Assembly: GCA_030605085.1 (NCBI GenBank)
Contig: JAUWBH010000023.1
Span: forward strand, 1 to 46,929
Source of the DNA: Promethearchaeota archaeon
GTDB lineage: Archaea; Asgardarchaeota; Lokiarchaeia; Sigynarchaeales; SOKP01
Reading direction: 5' to 3'
Length of the DNA stretch: 46,929 nt
The first letter of the stretch is position 1; the number at the start of each line of letters is the position of its first letter. This document shows, in pieces, positions 12,121-27,142 of the stretch. A program made the position numbers and the translations under genes. Below the pieces are notes generated by a model, which saw only the letters and a list, made by a program, of their open reading frames with translations, was not told where the DNA came from and did not search any database.

Positions 12121-13455
12121 ATGAGCAAAAAAGATAAAGAGCACTTAAATCTCGTGATCATTGGCCACCGTTATTAAACATATCGTTATAACGACCACAT
12201 TGACCACGGGAAAAGCACCATGATGGGTGCGCTCCTTATAGAGTCGGGGGCAATTTCAGAGAGAGAATCACGCGAACTCGAAAAATTGGCAAAAGAATAC
12301 GATAGAGAATCGTGGTCTTACGCTTTTGTTTTTGATAGACTAAAGGAAGAACGACAACGTGGAATTACAATTGACCTTGCGTTTAGAAAATTTGAAACTA
12401 AAAATAAATACTTTACAATTATTGATGCTCCTGGTCACGCTGATTTTGTTAAGAATATGATTACAGGAGCGTCTCAAGCTGACGCTGCTATTTTAGTAGT
12501 TTCTGGAAAAAAAGGTGAAATGGAAGTAGGAATTGCTGCTAACGGTCAAACTAGAGAACACGCGTACCTTGCACAAACTCTTGGCGTTAAGCAATTAGTT
12601 GTAGCAATTAATAAAGCTGATATTTACGATTACAAAGAAGATAGATTTAACGAATGTAAGGAAGGTATTTCTGACCTTTTGAGAAATATCGGTTTTCCGG
12701 TAAAGAAGATCCCATTTATTCCTGTAAGTGGTCTCGTAATGGAGAATTTGTCGAAATCTAGCGATAAAACTCCCTGGTATAAAGGACCAACCTTAATCGA
12801 TGCAATTGATGCTTTTGAAGTTCCTGAAAAACCTACTGACAAACCATTAAGACTTCCCATTCAAGATTCTTATAGCATCAAAGGTACTGGGGTCGTTCCT
12901 GTCGGTAGAGTAGAAACGGGTATTTTAAAAAAGGGAGATAAAATTGTCATTATGCCTTCGGGCTTTGAGGGAGAAATAAGATCAATAGAAATGCATCACG
13001 AGGAAATTCCACAAGCAATTCCAGGAGATAACATAGGTTTTAGCATCAGAGGCATTGAAATGGAAGACGCAAGGCGGGGTGATTGCTTAGGACATCCTGA
13101 TAATCCACCTACAGTCATCAATCCTTCTGGAAAATGGACGGGACAAATAATTGTTATTTGGCATCCAACGGCAATTGCGCAAGGTTATACGCCGGTGGTT
13201 CACGCTCACACTGCCCAAGTTGCTGCGAAGTTTCTCACACTTTCTAAAAAATTAGATCAAAAAACAGGTGCGGTAATTGAAGATAACCCCAAGTTTTTAA
13301 AGCGAAATGAGGCAGCGATAATTGAATTGTCTCCAATTAAGAAACTATGTATTGAAAAATACACGGATTTCCCTGAAATGGGTCGATTTGCAATTAGAGA
13401 CATGGGCAGAACCGTAGCGGTTGGCATCGTTAAGGATATAGAGACAGGAGCCTAA
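12121..13455 (+). CDS. tuf: Elongation factor 1-alpha (aEF1A), P-loop split by a stop-containing 30-nt insertion
   Basis: EF-1A is the GTPase that delivers aminoacyl-tRNA to the ribosome. The ATG at 12121 has AAAGGA about 7 nt upstream. Translation gives SKKDKEHLNLVIIGH and then meets CGT TAT TAA at 12169-12177. From 12199 the same frame resumes as IDHGKSTMMGALLIESG. Removing 30 nt gives NLVIIGHIDHGKSTMMG, the textbook G1 loop. The rest is intact: RGITIDL (G2), DAPGHADFVKNM (G3), NKAD (G4), and the domain 2/3 motifs QDSYSIKGTGVVPVGRVETG and YTPVVHAHTAQVA. The start at 12220 would lack the P-loop and could not bind GTP. Because the downstream frame shows no decay, the insert is presumably removed or bypassed, is recent, or is an assembly error. 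Confidence 0.9.
12169..12198 (+). other. 30-nt in-frame insertion in the EF-1A P-loop with 4-nt direct repeat and hairpin
   Basis: The insert starts after GGC CAC and ends before ATT GAC CAC. The boundaries are flanked by the direct repeat CCAC (12165-12168 and 12195-12198), so the exact junction can slide by 4 nt. CGTTAT (12169-12174) pairs with ATAACG (12188-12193), and TCGTTATAACGA (12183-12194) is itself a palindrome. UGG (12162-12164) can pair with CCA (12195-12197), giving a relaxed bulge-helix-bulge-like fold around the junctions. The insert contains TAA in frame (12175-12177). Confidence 0.85.
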
Positions 13456-13648
13456 AGAAATCCCCGTTTTTTTTTGATTACTTTTGTTTTTTTTTATTAA
13501 TTCTACATATTTAATTAGCAAAATTCAATTGTTCTTGTTTTATTGAAAATTTCTACAAAAAAAATAATGAAATAAAGAGTTTTATAAAAAATAGAGAATT
13601 ATTAAGAATTATAAGAATAAAACTTGCGAATTAAAGAATTGATAAAAT

Positions 13649-14410
13649 TTGTCGCTGACACAGAAATACTTTAACCGATTTGAGCTAAAATATCAAATAT
13701 CAGTAATGGATCGGGATAGAATTATTAAGCAGATAAGGCCTTTCATGGAATTAGACAAGCATGTTAAGACAGACAAATACAATAATCCGGGATTTTACGA
13801 AGTAAGGAGCGTATATTACGACAACCCATTTCGAAAAGCTTTTTTTGAAAAAATTAATGGAATTATGGTTAGATATAAGCTTCGAATTCGATTTTATCCT
13901 GATTTTGAAGATGGCGATGAGGAAATAGTCTTTATTGAAGTTAAAAGCAAATATAACGAAAATGTTGCAAAGAGTCGCGTTATAGTGCCTTTTGAAAAAG
14001 CTTTCAAAATTGTTGACGAGACTACTCCCGAAGCAAAAGAATTTTATAAAAACGCCTCCTATCAAGATAAATTGGTTTTAAATGGGATTTGGTATCTTTA
14101 TAAAAGATTTTACATCGTACCGGTTTGCGTTGTTTGTTATAAACGGCAACCGTATATGGCTAAAATAGAGAAAACGTTTCGAATAACTTTTGATACGGAC
14201 GTAAAAATTCGGGATTATAATTTTGATTTACATGTTGGTGGGGGGAGAAAATATGTCGTTCCGCCACACATATGCGTGATGGAGATTAAATTTAATAGTT
14301 TCATTCCCAATTGGGCGATAAGGTTAATACAGAGGAACGAGTGTATCCAACTTAAAATATCAAAATTTGTTGACGGTCTCAAACAGATAAAAGTATATAG
14401 CGTAATTTAA
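13649..14410 (+). CDS. VTC-domain protein, putative polyphosphate polymerase
   Basis: The protein belongs to the VTC/CYTH-like tunnel fold that makes polyphosphate from ATP. It reads NRFELKYQISVMDRDRIIKQ, then VRSVYYDNPFRKAFFEKING, VRYKLRIRFYP, EIVFIEVKSKYNENVAKSRV and, near the end, VCVMEIKFNSFIPNWAIRLI. These are the Lys/Arg/Glu-rich strands (YKLRIR, EVKSK, MEIKF) that line the tunnel in VTC4-type enzymes. The 253-aa length fits the stand-alone bacterial form, and there is no SPX domain. It starts at a TTG (13649). It heads a VTC/DUF4956/CotH cassette known from bacteria, which suggests acquisition as a unit. Confidence 0.85.
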   Translation: MSLTQKYFNRFELKYQISVMDRDRIIKQIRPFMELDKHVKTDKYNNPGFYEVRSVYYDNPFRKAFFEKINGIMVRYKLRIRFYPDFEDGDEEIVFIEVKSKYNENVAKSRVIVPFEKAFKIVDETTPEAKEFYKNASYQDKLVLNGIWYLYKRFYIVPVCVVCYKRQPYMAKIEKTFRITFDTDVKIRDYNFDLHVGGGRKYVVPPHICVMEIKFNSFIPNWAIRLIQRNECIQLKISKFVDGLKQIKVYSVI

Positions 14411-14509
14411 AAAGATTTTTTTATAAAGTAAGTTTTTATAAAGCATTAGAAGGATTTAATATAAAAATATAAAAAAAAAAAGAAAAAAAACAGGAATATA
14501 TACAATACA

Positions 14510-15325
14510 ATGATAATGCAGGATTTTTTTTCGGAGTTTATTAATAAATTTGTTGAGGATTCTTTCGTTCACTTCGGCGGCGAAGTATAACCACATTTCG
14601 TGGTTACACGCTAAGTTGCCTTTATTACCATCACCGATGTGGTTATTGCGTGTTTCTGGAGCATATTTTTGTCGTTTATGATAGCAATGACTTATCGAGG
14701 AACTCACCGAGGAGTTAGTTATTCCCAGAGTTTTACCCAAAATCTCATTCTTATTTGCTTTGTTGTATCAATCGTGATGTTAGTAATTGGGTCTGATATT
14801 GCGCGAGCCTTTACTTTAGTCGGAGCGCTTTCGATCATCCGTTTCCGAAACGCAATAAAAGATACCCGGGATGTAGGGTTTATCTTTTTTGTAATGGCAA
14901 TCGGGATGGCATGTGGTACGAGATTTTACATCTTAGCCATAATAACCGCATTTGTAGGATGTGGTTTAATATATTTCATGACCTCAACCAATTTCGGGCA
15001 AAAGGGCTACGCACAAGATATTATAGAGATCTATTTCCCAACGTCCAGAGATTACGCTAAGATATTAAGCCCTATTTTTGTCAGGCATCTTAAATATTAT
15101 TCCATTTTAGGCGTTGATTCGGTTGATGAGAACACTAATCGTTTGAGTTTTATCGTAACTTTTAAGCAAAAAAGTAGAGCTGCGCTAGTTTTTAAGCGTG
15201 GAAAAAAGCGGGGAGAAATCTTTGATGACTTAGGGGCTAAGGCGGCTTTATTAAAAGAAATTCAAGCCCTTGAATATATTAAAGATGTGAAAGTAATAGA
15301 TGGCAGTAATGCCTCGGAACTATAA
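14510..15325 (+). CDS. DUF4956 membrane protein, interrupted by a stop-containing 30-nt insertion
   Basis: The family is found next to VTC-type polyphosphate polymerases. From ATG 14510 the frame reads MIMQDFFSEFINKFVEDSFV HFGGE. It then meets TAA at 14588 and TAA at 14612, and resumes as VAFITITDVVIACFWSIFLS, followed by YRGTHRGVSYSQSF and the family core GSDIARAFTLVGALSIIRFR with VGFIFFVMAIGMACG. Removing 30 nt joins GGE to VAFITITD without a gap and restores the usual N-terminal helix before the YRxTHRGVSYS motif. Four or so membrane helices are followed by a soluble C-terminal domain. A start at GTG 14639 would drop the first segment. The stops lie only in the insert; the rest is clean. 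Confidence 0.8.
14583..14612 (+). other. 30-nt in-frame insertion in DUF4956 with 4-nt direct repeat and hairpin
   Basis: The insert is bounded by the direct repeat AAGT (14583-14586 and 14613-14616), exactly 30 nt apart. Inside it, TAACCAC (14588-14594) pairs perfectly with GTGGTTA (14600-14606) around the 5-nt loop ATTTC. Flanking GGCG/UGCC and GCG/CGC pairings can extend this into a bulge-helix-bulge-like fold with both junctions in unpaired bulges. It carries stops in frame at 14588 and 14612. It shares ACATWTCGT with the EF-1A insert (14593-14601 and 12178-12186). Confidence 0.8.
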
Positions 15326-15828: not shown

Positions 15829-16734
15829 CTATCCATACTGACCAAAACTTCCATCAAAATCCCAAGGAATTAAATGAAACTTGCTGGGAGCAGTATCTCT
15901 AATTAAAAAATAATTCTTATTCCAAAAATCTCTATGATAATTGAAAAAATTGAACAGAAAAAAGTCGATCAAATTTATCTTTTCAAATTTAGAATAAATT
16001 CCATATGTACTATTAAAAAACTCATCGTCGGGAGAATCGTTAATAAAATCAATCAAATCAGGTAAAATTTCGTCAATTATCTCCAAATCTTCTGGATTAG
16101 GCCAATCTTGTTCCCAAGATCCTTTTTCGTAATCCTCTATATTTGTATGACCTTTTGTTTGAAAAATTAAGCTGGAATCTAGTTCATGTAGGGATTGATC
16201 GAGACCAAATAACTTTCTATCGTTTTTTTCAGCAAGTAAATATAACCCCTGAAATTTTCGGTTTACAAACAAGCTAACATATTCAGACTCGGGTAGTATG
16301 GCCATATCGTGGTCTTTTTCTTGTAAACTACGCCATAAATCAAACGATAATTTCACTCGCATTCGAGTATGATCCATATAATTTGCAAATAATAGCCAAT
16401 CGTCGTCCTCGCGCATACCAAGGAGGGATATTTGTTGATCAAATTCTAAGCGATACCCTTTTTTTGGACGGTTTGCGTTAGTTGCACCTCTATATCTTAT
16501 TTTTCCTAATATATATTCGTCATTCAAATCAAAAGCACAATCAATATAATCTTTTTTATTTATTCCGCCTGAATACGATATATATACCTCTGGTAAATAT
16601 GAAGGCGCTTTTTCAGCATAAATATAATAAATGATCATCGAAAACATAAGAAGGAAAATAATAGTAAATCCTATAAAATCTTTTTTCCGTTGATGTATTG
16701 GTCTCTTATTTTTGAAACTTCTCGAGCTCAACAT
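15829..16734 (-). CDS. CotH-family protein kinase, N-terminal and catalytic part, ending at an in-frame amber
   Basis: CotH proteins are secreted or membrane-anchored atypical kinases. A cytoplasmic basic N-terminus (FKNKRPIHQRKKD) is followed by one membrane helix (FIGFTIIFLLMFSMIIYYIY), so the domain lies outside the cell. Family motifs are GKIRYRGATNANRPKKGYRL (the nucleotide-binding lysine region), MDHTRMRVKLSFDL, YVSLFVNRKFQGLYLLAEKN and the metal-binding IPWDFDGSFGQYG. The frame stops at TAG (15829-15831) directly after GQYG but continues open for 123 more codons. It is probably a Trp or Gln codon mutated to amber, or readthrough. It is convergent with the VTC/DUF4956 genes that CotH accompanies in bacteria. 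Confidence 0.8.
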   Translation of the reverse strand: MLSSRSFKNKRPIHQRKKDFIGFTIIFLLMFSMIIYYIYAEKAPSYLPEVYISYSGGINKKDYIDCAFDLNDEYILGKIRYRGATNANRPKKGYRLEFDQQISLLGMREDDDWLLFANYMDHTRMRVKLSFDLWRSLQEKDHDMAILPESEYVSLFVNRKFQGLYLLAEKNDRKLFGLDQSLHELDSSLIFQTKGHTNIEDYEKGSWEQDWPNPEDLEIIDEILPDLIDFINDSPDDEFFNSTYGIYSKFEKINLIDFFLFNFFNYHRDFWNKNYFLIRDTAPSKFHLIPWDFDGSFGQYG

Positions 16735-24262: not shown

Positions 24263-25075
24263 TTAACATTCTTTTTTGTCAAATTCTTCAATTATAACAT
24301 TCTGTTGGGCAGCCCACCACACCCATACTTGCCTAATAAAAAAATGAGCAATACCGAGATTTTGTTTCCAAGCGTGTGTATTTGACATATGCTCATGGCA
24401 AATCATAATATATTTTTTATTATTTTGCTCCCAGATATTTTTTAAAAAGAGCTTTCCACAATAATCTATAATTTTGGATTCAGCAAAACATCTAGGGCAA
24501 ACTTTCGGATATTCAGATGTTAAAAGAACTTTAATTTCGAAAGTAATTTCAGGGCGCTCTGGAACAAGTAAATTTCCGTTCCAGATTATATAGTTGTACC
24601 GAATATTTTTTTCAGGAAATAATTTAAACCACGGTCTATTTTGAGTATTTTTTAGAAAATTAATATATTTTAGAATTTTTTCAATTTCGAGTTTAATGCG
24701 ATCTTTCCAAGCGGGATGCTTTGGTCCAACCTCCATCCATTTTTGAGGAAATTCTTGAATTAATTCGTCAAGAATAGATCTTTGCCAACTTATTTCAGTT
24801 GATTTTGAACCAACAATTCCTCGATCTATGATATCGAAAGTATTACCGAATTTATCGACCAGATCTTTAATTGAACAGAGTAGATCTGTTGCAGTAAGCA
24901 CTTGCCCACCCATATTTGTTATACAGACATTATGAGAGGATATTCCAAACTTTTTTGAAATTTCAGGGACAATATCCATTAATTTTACATTTGGCGCAAC
25001 TGGAAAGGGTATTTGTTTTTTTTCCGAACCAAATTTATTCACAAAATAAATCGTATTCAATTCTGGTGATGTCAT
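24263..25075 (-). CDS. Fusion of a ubiquitin-like (beta-grasp) domain and an E2-like conjugating domain
   Basis: Residues about 8-88 look like a ubiquitin-like beta-grasp domain (TIYFVNKFGSEKKQIPFPVA, then KLMDIVPEISKKFGISSHNV and a terminal strand FDIIDRGIVG). Residues about 95-270 follow the E2 layout: helix 1 (RSILDELIQEF), then strands ending in LTSEYPKVCPRCF (compare YPxxPPxxxF). The segment YIMICHEHMSNTHAW follows, comparable to the E2 G-x-I-C-L...W block, which makes Cys226 the candidate thioester cysteine. It is the last gene of the operon, behind the JAMM and E1 genes. Whether the UBL is a modifier to be released or an interaction module is unknown, because there is no classical terminal Gly-Gly before the E2. 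Confidence 0.7.
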   Translation of the reverse strand: MTSPELNTIYFVNKFGSEKKQIPFPVAPNVKLMDIVPEISKKFGISSHNVCITNMGGQVLTATDLLCSIKDLVDKFGNTFDIIDRGIVGSKSTEISWQRSILDELIQEFPQKWMEVGPKHPAWKDRIKLEIEKILKYINFLKNTQNRPWFKLFPEKNIRYNYIIWNGNLLVPERPEITFEIKVLLTSEYPKVCPRCFAESKIIDYCGKLFLKNIWEQNNKKYIMICHEHMSNTHAWKQNLGIAHFFIRQVWVWWAAQQNVIIEEFDKKEC

Positions 25076-25108
25076 TATAATTCTTATTTTTAGTAGTTTT
25101 TCTCTTAA

Positions 25109-26302
25109 TTAATTATTGAATATAATACTTTTATTTTTATTTAATTCAAAATTTTTAAAGACGATTTTAATATCGTTAAATGACTTTTGAATTTGTTTTT
25201 TCATTTTAGTGCTTAATTCAAGATTAGCAAAAGATTCAAGCACAGAAATCAACTTCAAAATAAATTCGAAATTCTTATTTGAAAGTCCATTTTCGTTTAA
25301 TTTTTTCTTATTATAGTGTAAAATTCCAATATAAAATCCAAAAAACCTTATGTAAAAGGCGTCGGGGATTACAATTTTGTTGTTATCGCAATCGAGAATA
25401 CTATAATAAACTTTTTGGAGAATTTTATTATTTACCAATTCTATTTTAACTTTTTGGTTGATATCTTCATATGTATAATTATCGTTATTAATATAAATTG
25501 GAACTAAAACTTCTAGATTTAATTTTAAGGAAAAATAATCTCGCTTATTCTTACTTTCAAGTTTGATTTGATTATCAAATTTGTTATCAATAATAATTTG
25601 ATTCTTTTTCCCTACTTTAAATTTATTAGGAATTTTAAGTCGAATTGATTCAGATGTTAATTTAGTGGCAAAGTATTTTGAGATCGGTTCAAACTGAGAT
25701 ATCTTTGAGTTTTTATAGAATATCTCTAAATCATTCCATACTTTTTCAAAATAGTCTTTTAGCTCGTTTAGTATCTTTATTTTTATTCTTTCTTTATCGT
25801 TTAAATCGCTTTTTATAATATTAATATCAAAAATTTCTTCCATAGAAATTAATAAAAACTTAGGAGTTTCTGATTCAATAAATTTAACGATAATTTCCTT
25901 GGATTTATTATTTTTGCCCATATGGTAATAATTAATGTTTGTACCATTTGTAACAATTGAAACGCAATTAGGAAATTGTTTACTTAAGCTTACAAAAGTA
26001 GTATCGTCAATATGACTATGAAAAATTTCGCTCGAAAAAGGATGCGAGTGATATATACCAATAGAACCGATTCCTTGAGGCAATATGGAACTTATTTCTT
26101 GGAATTCTTGGACGTCTGGAATTGCACTTATAAGGGTTTGCTGTTCGAATCTCTTACATTCAATAATTGCTAAAACAATGGGGATATTATCCTTTTGGTA
26201 TCCAATTAGCCAACCATATATTTCATTTTCGCTTGATAACGCTTGATTTTTAATTACATCGATGAATATTTCTGGTGTATAGAATATTTTTATTAAATTC
26301 AC
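25109..26302 (-). CDS. JAMM/MPN+ metalloprotease with long C-terminal extension
   Basis: The N-terminal 150 residues are a JAB/MPN+ domain: Glu27 in SSENEIYGWLIG and the zinc motif YHSHPFSSEIFHSHIDD with His85, His87, Ser96 and Asp99. The spacing from HxHP to SxxD is one residue longer than in Rpn11. JAMM enzymes cleave isopeptide or C-terminal bonds of ubiquitin-like proteins. The remaining 250 residues (Lys/Asn/Ile-rich, mixed helix and strand) are not recognised; they could bind substrate. The gene begins 3 nt after E1 ends, so the two are tightly coupled, and the UBL-E2 gene follows after 33 nt. Confidence 0.85.
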   Translation of the reverse strand: MNLIKIFYTPEIFIDVIKNQALSSENEIYGWLIGYQKDNIPIVLAIIECKRFEQQTLISAIPDVQEFQEISSILPQGIGSIGIYHSHPFSSEIFHSHIDDTTFVSLSKQFPNCVSIVTNGTNINYYHMGKNNKSKEIIVKFIESETPKFLLISMEEIFDINIIKSDLNDKERIKIKILNELKDYFEKVWNDLEIFYKNSKISQFEPISKYFATKLTSESIRLKIPNKFKVGKKNQIIIDNKFDNQIKLESKNKRDYFSLKLNLEVLVPIYINNDNYTYEDINQKVKIELVNNKILQKVYYSILDCDNNKIVIPDAFYIRFFGFYIGILHYNKKKLNENGLSNKNFEFILKLISVLESFANLELSTKMKKQIQKSFNDIKIVFKNFELNKNKSIIFNN

Positions 26303-26305
26303 CTT

Positions 26306-27142
26306 TTATTCTTTGATTTTATCAATTAAATCATTTAATTCTTCTTGCGATATTTTAGGTTTCACTGATTTTTCTCCAACCATAAATTTTTTGCCACATA
26401 TAGGGCAATTTTCATCTCTTTTAGTTTTATATGTTAAAAAATTCCCTGTTATCATATTGTACGTGAGATAATCAATCATTTGGCCAAACTTTAGAAGATA
26501 TTTTAGCATCTCTTGGATCTGAACGCTTGCTAAGATTGCCATTGTTGAAGGCAAGGATGCAACACAAGATTCACTTCTCTCGTCTGAAATGTTAATCGGG
26601 ATATTACTTAAGCATTTAGCACAAGCGGTCTTATGTGGGATAATAGGGTGAACATAACCCGATAATCCACTTCGAGAAACGCCAGCATCTATATAGGGTA
26701 CATTTAATAGAACACATTTAACATTTAAATATTCTCTTGCGGGAACATTATCTAATCCATTTAAAATAATATCCATTTGTTTAATTTCATCCTCAAAATG
26801 AGGTTCGAAGCTTGGATCCATGATATTATTTTCGAAACTTCTTATTTCTACATCAGGATTTATATCTTTCAATATTTCTGAAGCGACTTTAACTTTCGGT
26901 TGTCCTATATGTGCTTCTTTAAACAAATGTCTGTTTAAGTTTACAATGTCTACAGTATCAAAATCGAATAAGGAAACCTTCCCTACCCCGCACCTTACAG
27001 ACATTTCAGCAGAAACGCAACCAAGGCCTCCAACGCCAATAATTCCGATATGATGTTGTCTAAGATTATCCCAATTAACATTATAACCAAAATCTTTAAT
27101 CGCTTTTAATCTTGTATATCTTGTATTTCCTTTTTGAGTCAT
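26306..27142 (-). CDS. E1-like (ThiF/MoeB/UBA-type) activating enzyme
   Basis: E1 enzymes adenylate the C-terminus of a ubiquitin-like protein and pass it to a cysteine. The 278-aa protein has the Rossmann ATP-binding loop GIIGVGGLGCVSAEMSVRCG, then VSLFDFDTVDIVNLNRHLF and IGQPKVKVASEIL, and DIILNGLDNVPAREYLN. The zinc pairs are CAKC and CPIC. The active-site cysteine is probably Cys193 in ESCVASLPSTMAILASVQIQ. This is the compact MoeB/HesA size rather than eukaryotic UBA1. It lies between the CDC48-N-like protein (18-nt gap) and the JAMM protein (3-nt gap) in one operon. Confidence 0.9.
   Translation of the reverse strand: MTQKGNTRYTRLKAIKDFGYNVNWDNLRQHHIGIIGVGGLGCVSAEMSVRCGVGKVSLFDFDTVDIVNLNRHLFKEAHIGQPKVKVASEILKDINPDVEIRSFENNIMDPSFEPHFEDEIKQMDIILNGLDNVPAREYLNVKCVLLNVPYIDAGVSRSGLSGYVHPIIPHKTACAKCLSNIPINISDERSESCVASLPSTMAILASVQIQEMLKYLLKFGQMIDYLTYNMITGNFLTYKTKRDENCPICGKKFMVGEKSVKPKISQEELNDLIDKIKE

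Follow-up and report, generated by a model that had tools for sequence, protein, structure and literature searches.

The archaeal introns closest to those considered here lie in two kinds of genes. Those of tRNA genes carry a bulge-helix-bulge (BHB) motif that is processed by the tRNA-splicing endonuclease EndA, and Asgard archaea have them too, with introns reported in 92-95% of the tRNA genes of three Asgard genomes (PMC11291895). In the open-licence papers surveyed, preprints not included, archaeal pre-mRNA BHB introns are described only from the cbf5 gene of Crenarchaeota (Desulfurococcales and Sulfolobales), for which a 2009 paper reports a BHB-like, partly unconventional fold, lineage-specific loss, cleavage between bulge bases 2 and 3, and a connection of that cleavage with a hetero-oligomeric EndA (PMC2738675). 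Here we analyze a stretch of 46,929 nucleotides from a Promethearchaeota archaeon (contig JAUWBH010000023.1, hereafter "the window"), in which an EF-1A gene and a DUF4956 gene are each interrupted by a 30-nt insert. From their sequence, both inserts are very probably BHB introns, that is, EndA substrates that would be spliced from the mRNA.

These inserts resemble the cbf5 introns in lying in protein genes, in their BHB-like and partly unconventional fold, in lineage-specific loss, in the predicted position of cleavage and in the kind of EndA encoded by relatives. Neither of them is in cbf5, and what is new with respect to the literature surveyed is the phylum, the genes concerned (EF-1A, EF-2, aIF2-gamma, IscU and DUF4956), the interruption of as many as three genes in one genome, the narrow size range (27-33 nt) and the recurrence at P-loop codons; the kind of intron itself is known from cbf5. 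The predicted enzyme and motif are also those of tRNA BHB introns, but the Asgard inserts belong to mRNAs, where excision has to restore a reading frame. A further parallel is the transposition of tRNA introns in Thermoproteales, where very similar BHB introns occur at several targets with a patchy spread and by an unknown mechanism (PMC4090602). In our case transposition is a possibility, and its recurrent target would be the P-loop and neighboring codons of translation GTPase genes.

Interrupted genes and predicted intron structure

The window EF-1A is closest to that of Lokiarchaeota metagenome-assembled genomes (MAGs), with identities of up to 89-90%, which places the window among the Lokiarchaeal genomes. 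On the plus strand, the EF-1A gene (12121-13455) reads ...NLVIIGH RY*TYRYNDH IDHGKST... and the DUF4956 gene (14510-15325) reads ...HFGGE V*PHFVVTR* VAFITITD..., where the middle block is the 30-nt insert and the asterisks are its in-frame stops. A previous sequence-only reading of this DNA had pointed out both inserts, and comparison with relatives, which are uninterrupted at both points, shows them to be real. The N-terminal stretch of EF-1A is insert-free in 22 of the 24 Lokiarchaeota loci compared. The DUF4956 site is open in the nine genomes of the Lokiarchaeal class whose good match spans it (9 of 12 rows); this class, to which G009 belongs, comprises 83 genomes and includes G082, a MAG named as Sigynarchaeota.

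In both genes four exon bases, separated from the 5' junction by 2 nt, are able to pair with four intron bases that stop 2 nt short of the 3' junction. This pairing rule holds for the four inserts first compared, namely the two in the window and two near the P-loop in the 24 Lokiarchaeota EF-1A loci, one at the same codon boundary as in the window with a different sequence (L012) and the other within the P-loop lysine codon (L009). The central helix thus defined can form four of four pairs in DUF4956 and three of four in EF-1A, with 3-nt bulges on either side and a 23-nt hairpin as the remainder of the intron. The length of 30 nt follows from this build (1 + 23 + 4 + 2), and the direct repeats at the insert borders can be explained by the similarity of the bulges. 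With cuts between bases 2 and 3 of each bulge, the joined exons encode an open, conserved protein at all fitted sites. In the proposed mechanism, the RNA would adopt the BHB fold in the cell, EndA would cut the inserts out of the mRNA and RtcB would then join the exons. The features of the two genes are as follows (the caret marks the predicted cut).

12121..12168 (+): EF-1A exon 1 (MSKKDKEHLNLVIIGH), from translation and junction register
12163..12166 (+): 5' strand of the EF-1A central BHB helix, GGCC, in exon 1; possible pairing 3/4 with GACC at 12193-12196, one C.A mismatch; absent from the minimum-energy fold
12167..12169 (+): EF-1A 5' bulge AC^C, predicted cut after 12168
12169..12198 (+): predicted EF-1A BHB intron, 30 nt, between P-loop His16 and Ile17; four alternative registers yield identical joined DNA
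12170..12192 (+): inner hairpin of the EF-1A intron, GUUAU/AUAAC stem, from folding
12193..12196 (+): 3' strand of the EF-1A central helix, GACC, in the intron
12197..12199 (+): EF-1A 3' bulge AC^A, predicted cut after 12198
12199..13455 (+): EF-1A exon 2 (IDHGKST... through the stop), from translation; Pfam GTP_EFTU and domains 2-3 in 12220-13452
14510..14584 (+): DUF4956 exon 1 (MIMQDFF...HFGGE), from translation
14579..14582 (+): 5' strand of the DUF4956 central helix, GGCG; possible pairing 4/4 with CGCU at 14609-14612; absent from the minimum-energy fold
14583..14585 (+): DUF4956 5' bulge AA^G, predicted cut after 14584
14585..14614 (+): predicted DUF4956 BHB intron, 30 nt; four alternative registers yield identical joined DNA
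14586..14608 (+): inner hairpin of the DUF4956 intron, AACCAC/GUGGUU stem, from folding
14609..14612 (+): 3' strand of the DUF4956 central helix, CGCU, in the intron
14613..14615 (+): DUF4956 3' bulge AA^G, predicted cut after 14614
14615..15325 (+): DUF4956 exon 2, from translation; PF16316 in 14639-15322

A scan of the window with Rfam at the gathering score gave no matches, and a group I or group II intron was rejected as no Rfam model matched in the window.

Distribution of the inserts among Asgard genomes

Thirty-nine Asgard genomes, 36 of the 83 in the Lokiarchaeal class and three of one other class, contain a further 50 inserts of the same build, all in translation GTPase genes but for one in an IscU gene. 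This supports the previous suggestions that the window inserts form one family and represent an intron class. The total is therefore 52 inserts at 14 gene positions in EF-1A, EF-2 paralogs, aIF2-gamma, IscU and DUF4956, with lengths of 27 (n = 1), 29 (16), 30 (25), 31 (5), 32 (3) and 33 nt (2). Genome counts are lower bounds, and genomes without a detected gene were scored as intron-free. The reading frame is shifted by 24 of the 52 introns, and the joined exons are nonetheless conserved.

Of the 73 class genomes that match EF-1A strongly, two or more of them only in part, eight have an interrupted gene, as do at least three more genomes elsewhere in the phylum (G190, G194 and G212), all of one other class. 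At least 20 introns were found in EF-2, in 18 genomes and at least two paralogs, by a survey that took in rows showing stops or splits rather than every partial row. The aIF2-gamma gene carries an intron in 18 of the 72 class genomes with a near full-length match, and the IscU gene of G007 carries one of 27 nt. Up to three genes are interrupted in a single genome (G012 and G046). In the class of G212, aIF2-gamma gave a match in 46 of 47 genomes, and none of these matches shows a stop (five rows are partial, all spanning the P-loop). Of 50 other genomes, G082 of the Lokiarchaeal class among them, 48 gave a match, and no insert was seen in these (50 of 56 loci compared; two partial rows miss the P-loop). 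For cbf5, no stop was found in 81 rows covering 80 of the 83 genomes of the Lokiarchaeal class, three of the rows being partial. The EF-2 gene of G074 (L156) and the aIF2-gamma gene of G090 (G090:C70:2742-3950, TAA) show a single in-frame TAG or TAA with no added length, unlike the introns.

A homology-based search for inserts in 1.5 Mb of Asgard DNA (1305 open reading frames), biased towards the genes searched, gave 61 clusters, of which only those of translation GTPases, IscU and DUF4956 were judged convincing; the others were rejected, as they lie at gene starts or in upstream regions.

The wider set also delimits two similarities that the sequence-only reading had taken as marks of the family. 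The shared motif ACATWTCGT is real, its occurrences at 12178 and 14593 being the only ones on either strand of the window, but it is present in only two of 50 introns and is not a family signature. Its presence in both window introns could reflect a recent common origin or chance. The 4-nt direct repeats are likewise genuine at both window sites and do not extend to a general rule: with each of 13 sites represented once, repeats of anything between 0 and 4 nt are seen, and the full 4 nt is confined to the two window sites.

Exon-intron pairing and covariation

All four central pairs can form in 48 of the 52 introns and three in the other four, one of which is the window EF-1A intron. Two control tests cover 50 of the 52 introns and leave two EF-2 paralog-A introns outside: with the intron 4-mer taken at other offsets (slide test), 4 bp was reached in 38 of 1500 tries, and with partners exchanged between the 13 gene positions (swap test) the mean was 31.7 pairs and the maximum 44 in 20000 swaps, against 51 of 52 pairs formed in the real combination. 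Among the 30-nt introns (n = 25, 23 distinct), 274 of 299 central and inner pairs form, compared with 35-50% when the partner is slid by 1-3 nt.

Both strands of the helix change together at individual sites. At the P-loop of EF-2 paralog A, the pair is ATGG/CCAT in G041 and ACGG/CTGT in G040, and at the GH^V site of EF-2 both GGTC/GACC and GGCC/GGCT occur. Codon choice in the exon also differs with the presence of an intron: the EF-1A His19 codon is CAT in all five genes with the G^K intron versus 21 of the 63 with neither P-loop intron, and the EF-2 Ala codon is GCG in all three genes with the H^I intron versus one of the 15 readable genes without it.

Splicing enzymes of the relatives

The sequence-only reading had proposed EndA as a check, and the outcome is positive at the gene level in relatives, where 23 of 24 Lokiarchaeal genomes have an EndA match and 17 of the 24 have two paralogs (PF01974). 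For most of its length the first paralog aligns with chain 3p1z_B, and it has the same EHSPF-type His and SVRKKF Lys, which we take to be active-site residues. The second aligns best with 1a79 and has Ser in place of the His in the three genomes in which both genes were read. The two paralogs can be read as a putative catalytic and a putative structural subunit, as in hetero-oligomeric EndA. RtcB was present in all eight intron-bearing genomes tested, and the window organism would have genes for EndA and RtcB as its relatives do. In a sample of the relative G055 (L171-L210), two of the seven tRNA genes found by ARAGORN contain introns (Gln-CTG, 15 nt; Thr-TGT, 29 nt).

Alternative explanations

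Several results weigh against the splicing of these inserts as BHB introns. Splicing is a prediction from the DNA sequence, and the evidence for EndA and RtcB comes from the genomes of relatives. In minimum-energy folds calculated with 20-nt flanks, 31 of the 52 introns form every central pair and the other 21 form none, both window inserts being among the latter. Forcing the BHB form on these two costs 5.0 (EF-1A) and 5.5 (DUF4956) kcal/mol. These costs are among the three highest of the set, whose median is 1.3. The hairpins noticed by the sequence-only reading do fold better than dinucleotide shuffles (z of -3.0 and -3.8), this fold being a competing, non-BHB hairpin. The window EF-1A intron moreover has a C.A mismatch and 0 of 4 outer pairs beside the central helix. 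Ambiguous junctions were fitted to the best-pairing register, for which the swap test allows and the slide test does not. Finally, a scan for the geometry plus an open frame in 0.8 Mb of G055 returned 87 sites, compared with 85, 87, 87, 92, 93 and 101 for six wrong geometries, implying that the motif alone is powerless as a finder and that such introns are rare in G055. The same scan gave eight sites in the window versus three to seven for wrong geometries; it recovered the DUF4956 intron and the EF-2 intron of G055 and missed the window EF-1A intron, which has three of four pairs.

We nevertheless keep the BHB assignment for the window, because the length, the build and, for EF-1A, the exact position are common to relatives that fold better, as exemplified by the EF-1A intron of G012, whose minimum-energy fold has all four central pairs. 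The window pair would then be relaxed or weak EndA substrates, with the EF-1A intron forming a relaxed BHB.

The alternative that best withstands the evidence is programmed translational bypass, in which the mRNA would keep the insert and ribosomes would jump across the hairpin. In the mitochondria of Magnusiomyces yeasts, elements of this kind (byps) are short hairpin inserts in conserved coding sequence that are kept in the mRNA and skipped by ribosomes. The Asgard inserts, some of which shift the frame, are like byps in size and shape, the minimum-energy folds in the window are hairpins without the BHB helix, and the 4-nt repeats at the two window sites could serve as take-off and landing sites. 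A repeat of 0-4 nt over 13 sites does not fit such a role, however, and bypass gives no reason for the pairing of an exon 4-mer with an intron 3' 4-mer at fixed spacing, which is perfect in 48 of 52 cases; we know of no exon-intron BHB pairing in byps. Since relatives also encode the splicing enzymes, we regard bypass, which the sequence-only reading had entertained and which the exon-intron pairing rule disfavors, as improbable.

Splicing of BHB introns also accounts better for the data than two readings in which the insert is never removed from RNA, both of which we consider very unlikely. According to the first, the inserts are insertions in decaying gene copies, or assembly errors, as the in-frame stops in both genes might indicate. 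Against this, 39 other genomes have inserts of the same build, the exons remain conserved once joined, and the pairing covaries. Besides, the EF-1A product is essential, and a single EF-1A match (E<=1e-60) was found in all 11 surveyed genomes with an EF-1A intron. The second is a miniature transposable element with a 4-nt target-site duplication, close to one of the suggestions of the sequence-only reading. The repeats at both window sites and the patchy distribution on the EF-1A tree speak for such an element. Its repeat should have a constant length, whereas that observed ranges from 0 to 4 nt and overlaps the BHB bulges, and most introns lie at conserved GTPase codons; without removal the protein would be broken. 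Stop-codon recoding by selenocysteine or pyrrolysine, in which the insert would be read through into additional residues, deserves hardly any credence here. Recoding as such has been proposed for Asgard lineages (PMC9723677), but TAA is found in the inserts besides TAG and TGA, 24 of 52 shift the frame, and many would split the GTPase P-loop.

If the BHB assignment is true, enzyme-based mRNA splicing would be in regular use in the archaea closest to eukaryotes, which would offer a natural system to measure intron gain and loss at defined codons. Core Asgard genes would also be liable to be truncated or overlooked by automatic annotation.

Insertion sites and possible mobility

The introns lie at V^I, H^I, G^K, D^F and I^K in EF-1A, at H^I, G^K, SD^D, TD^S and GH^V in EF-2, at G^K in EF-2 paralog A and in aIF2-gamma, and at one site each in IscU and DUF4956. 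Most of the introns fall within or close to three motifs of translational GTPases, G1 (P-loop), switch-I and G3. The P-loop lysine codon is split alike in EF-1A, two EF-2 paralogs and aIF2-gamma, by introns of different sequences. Because the distribution is patchy, the introns were probably inserted repeatedly at a preferred sequence and not inherited from a time before the paralogs split. A tree of 70 EF-1A genes requires a minimum of 11 changes at the aIF2-gamma site and of eight at EF-2 SD^D; this tree is a quick one, with 20 of 67 inner branches poorly supported and gene absence scored as intron absence.

Intron mobility is possible. The EF-2 introns of G050 and G046 are identical over 30 of 30 nt, with 80% identity in the downstream exon (600 nt) and 97% in the upstream 30 nt, which hints at recent transfer or local constraint. 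In six of nine intron-discordant pairs, the first 30 nt downstream are the worst of the first 11 bins (3-8 mismatches); this is not so in the other three. The burst is not a specific footprint of co-conversion, since G001/G044, intron-free on both sides, and several intron-free EF-1A pairs show the same, and it was dropped as evidence for mobility. In EF-2 of the close relatives G001, G044 and G002 (L256 and L257 versus L143), a short tract around the intron site is strongly divergent among all three, including the two genes without an intron.

A broader and clearly tentative proposal is that mobile mini-introns of about 30 nt repeatedly home into GTPase-motif codons of EF-1A, EF-2 and aIF2-gamma, above all those of the P-loop GHxDHGK, spread by reverse splicing or short-tract gene conversion, and turn over fast. 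They could then regulate translation capacity, a possible switch suggested by the fact that the introns would tie elongation-factor production to the tRNA-splicing machinery.

Other observations

In AtpA, no full-length row of the Lokiarchaeal class shows a stop among the matches listed. Two rows of this search that do have stops were rejected, one being a match at a contig start and the other an AtpB match overrunning the gene end. The AtpA of G016, G019, G025, G029, G040 and G050 gives a two-piece match meeting near profile positions 232-253 within one open frame of 1124-1175 aa, and looks like it holds a putative in-frame intein near the P-loop. This is the same kind of codon as that of the introns and a different kind of insert.

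The CotH-like gene of the window (15829-16734, minus strand) has a TAG at 15829-15831 where L130 has Trp (SFGQYG*IKYD versus SFGQMGWKKY). An intron was rejected here, as there is no insert and coding continues downstream; the TAG is a point nonsense change or a sequencing error. At 24263-27142 on the minus strand, genes for a UFC1-like E2, a JAB-domain protein and a ThiF/E1-like protein adjoin, in an apparent ubiquitin-like conjugation cluster.

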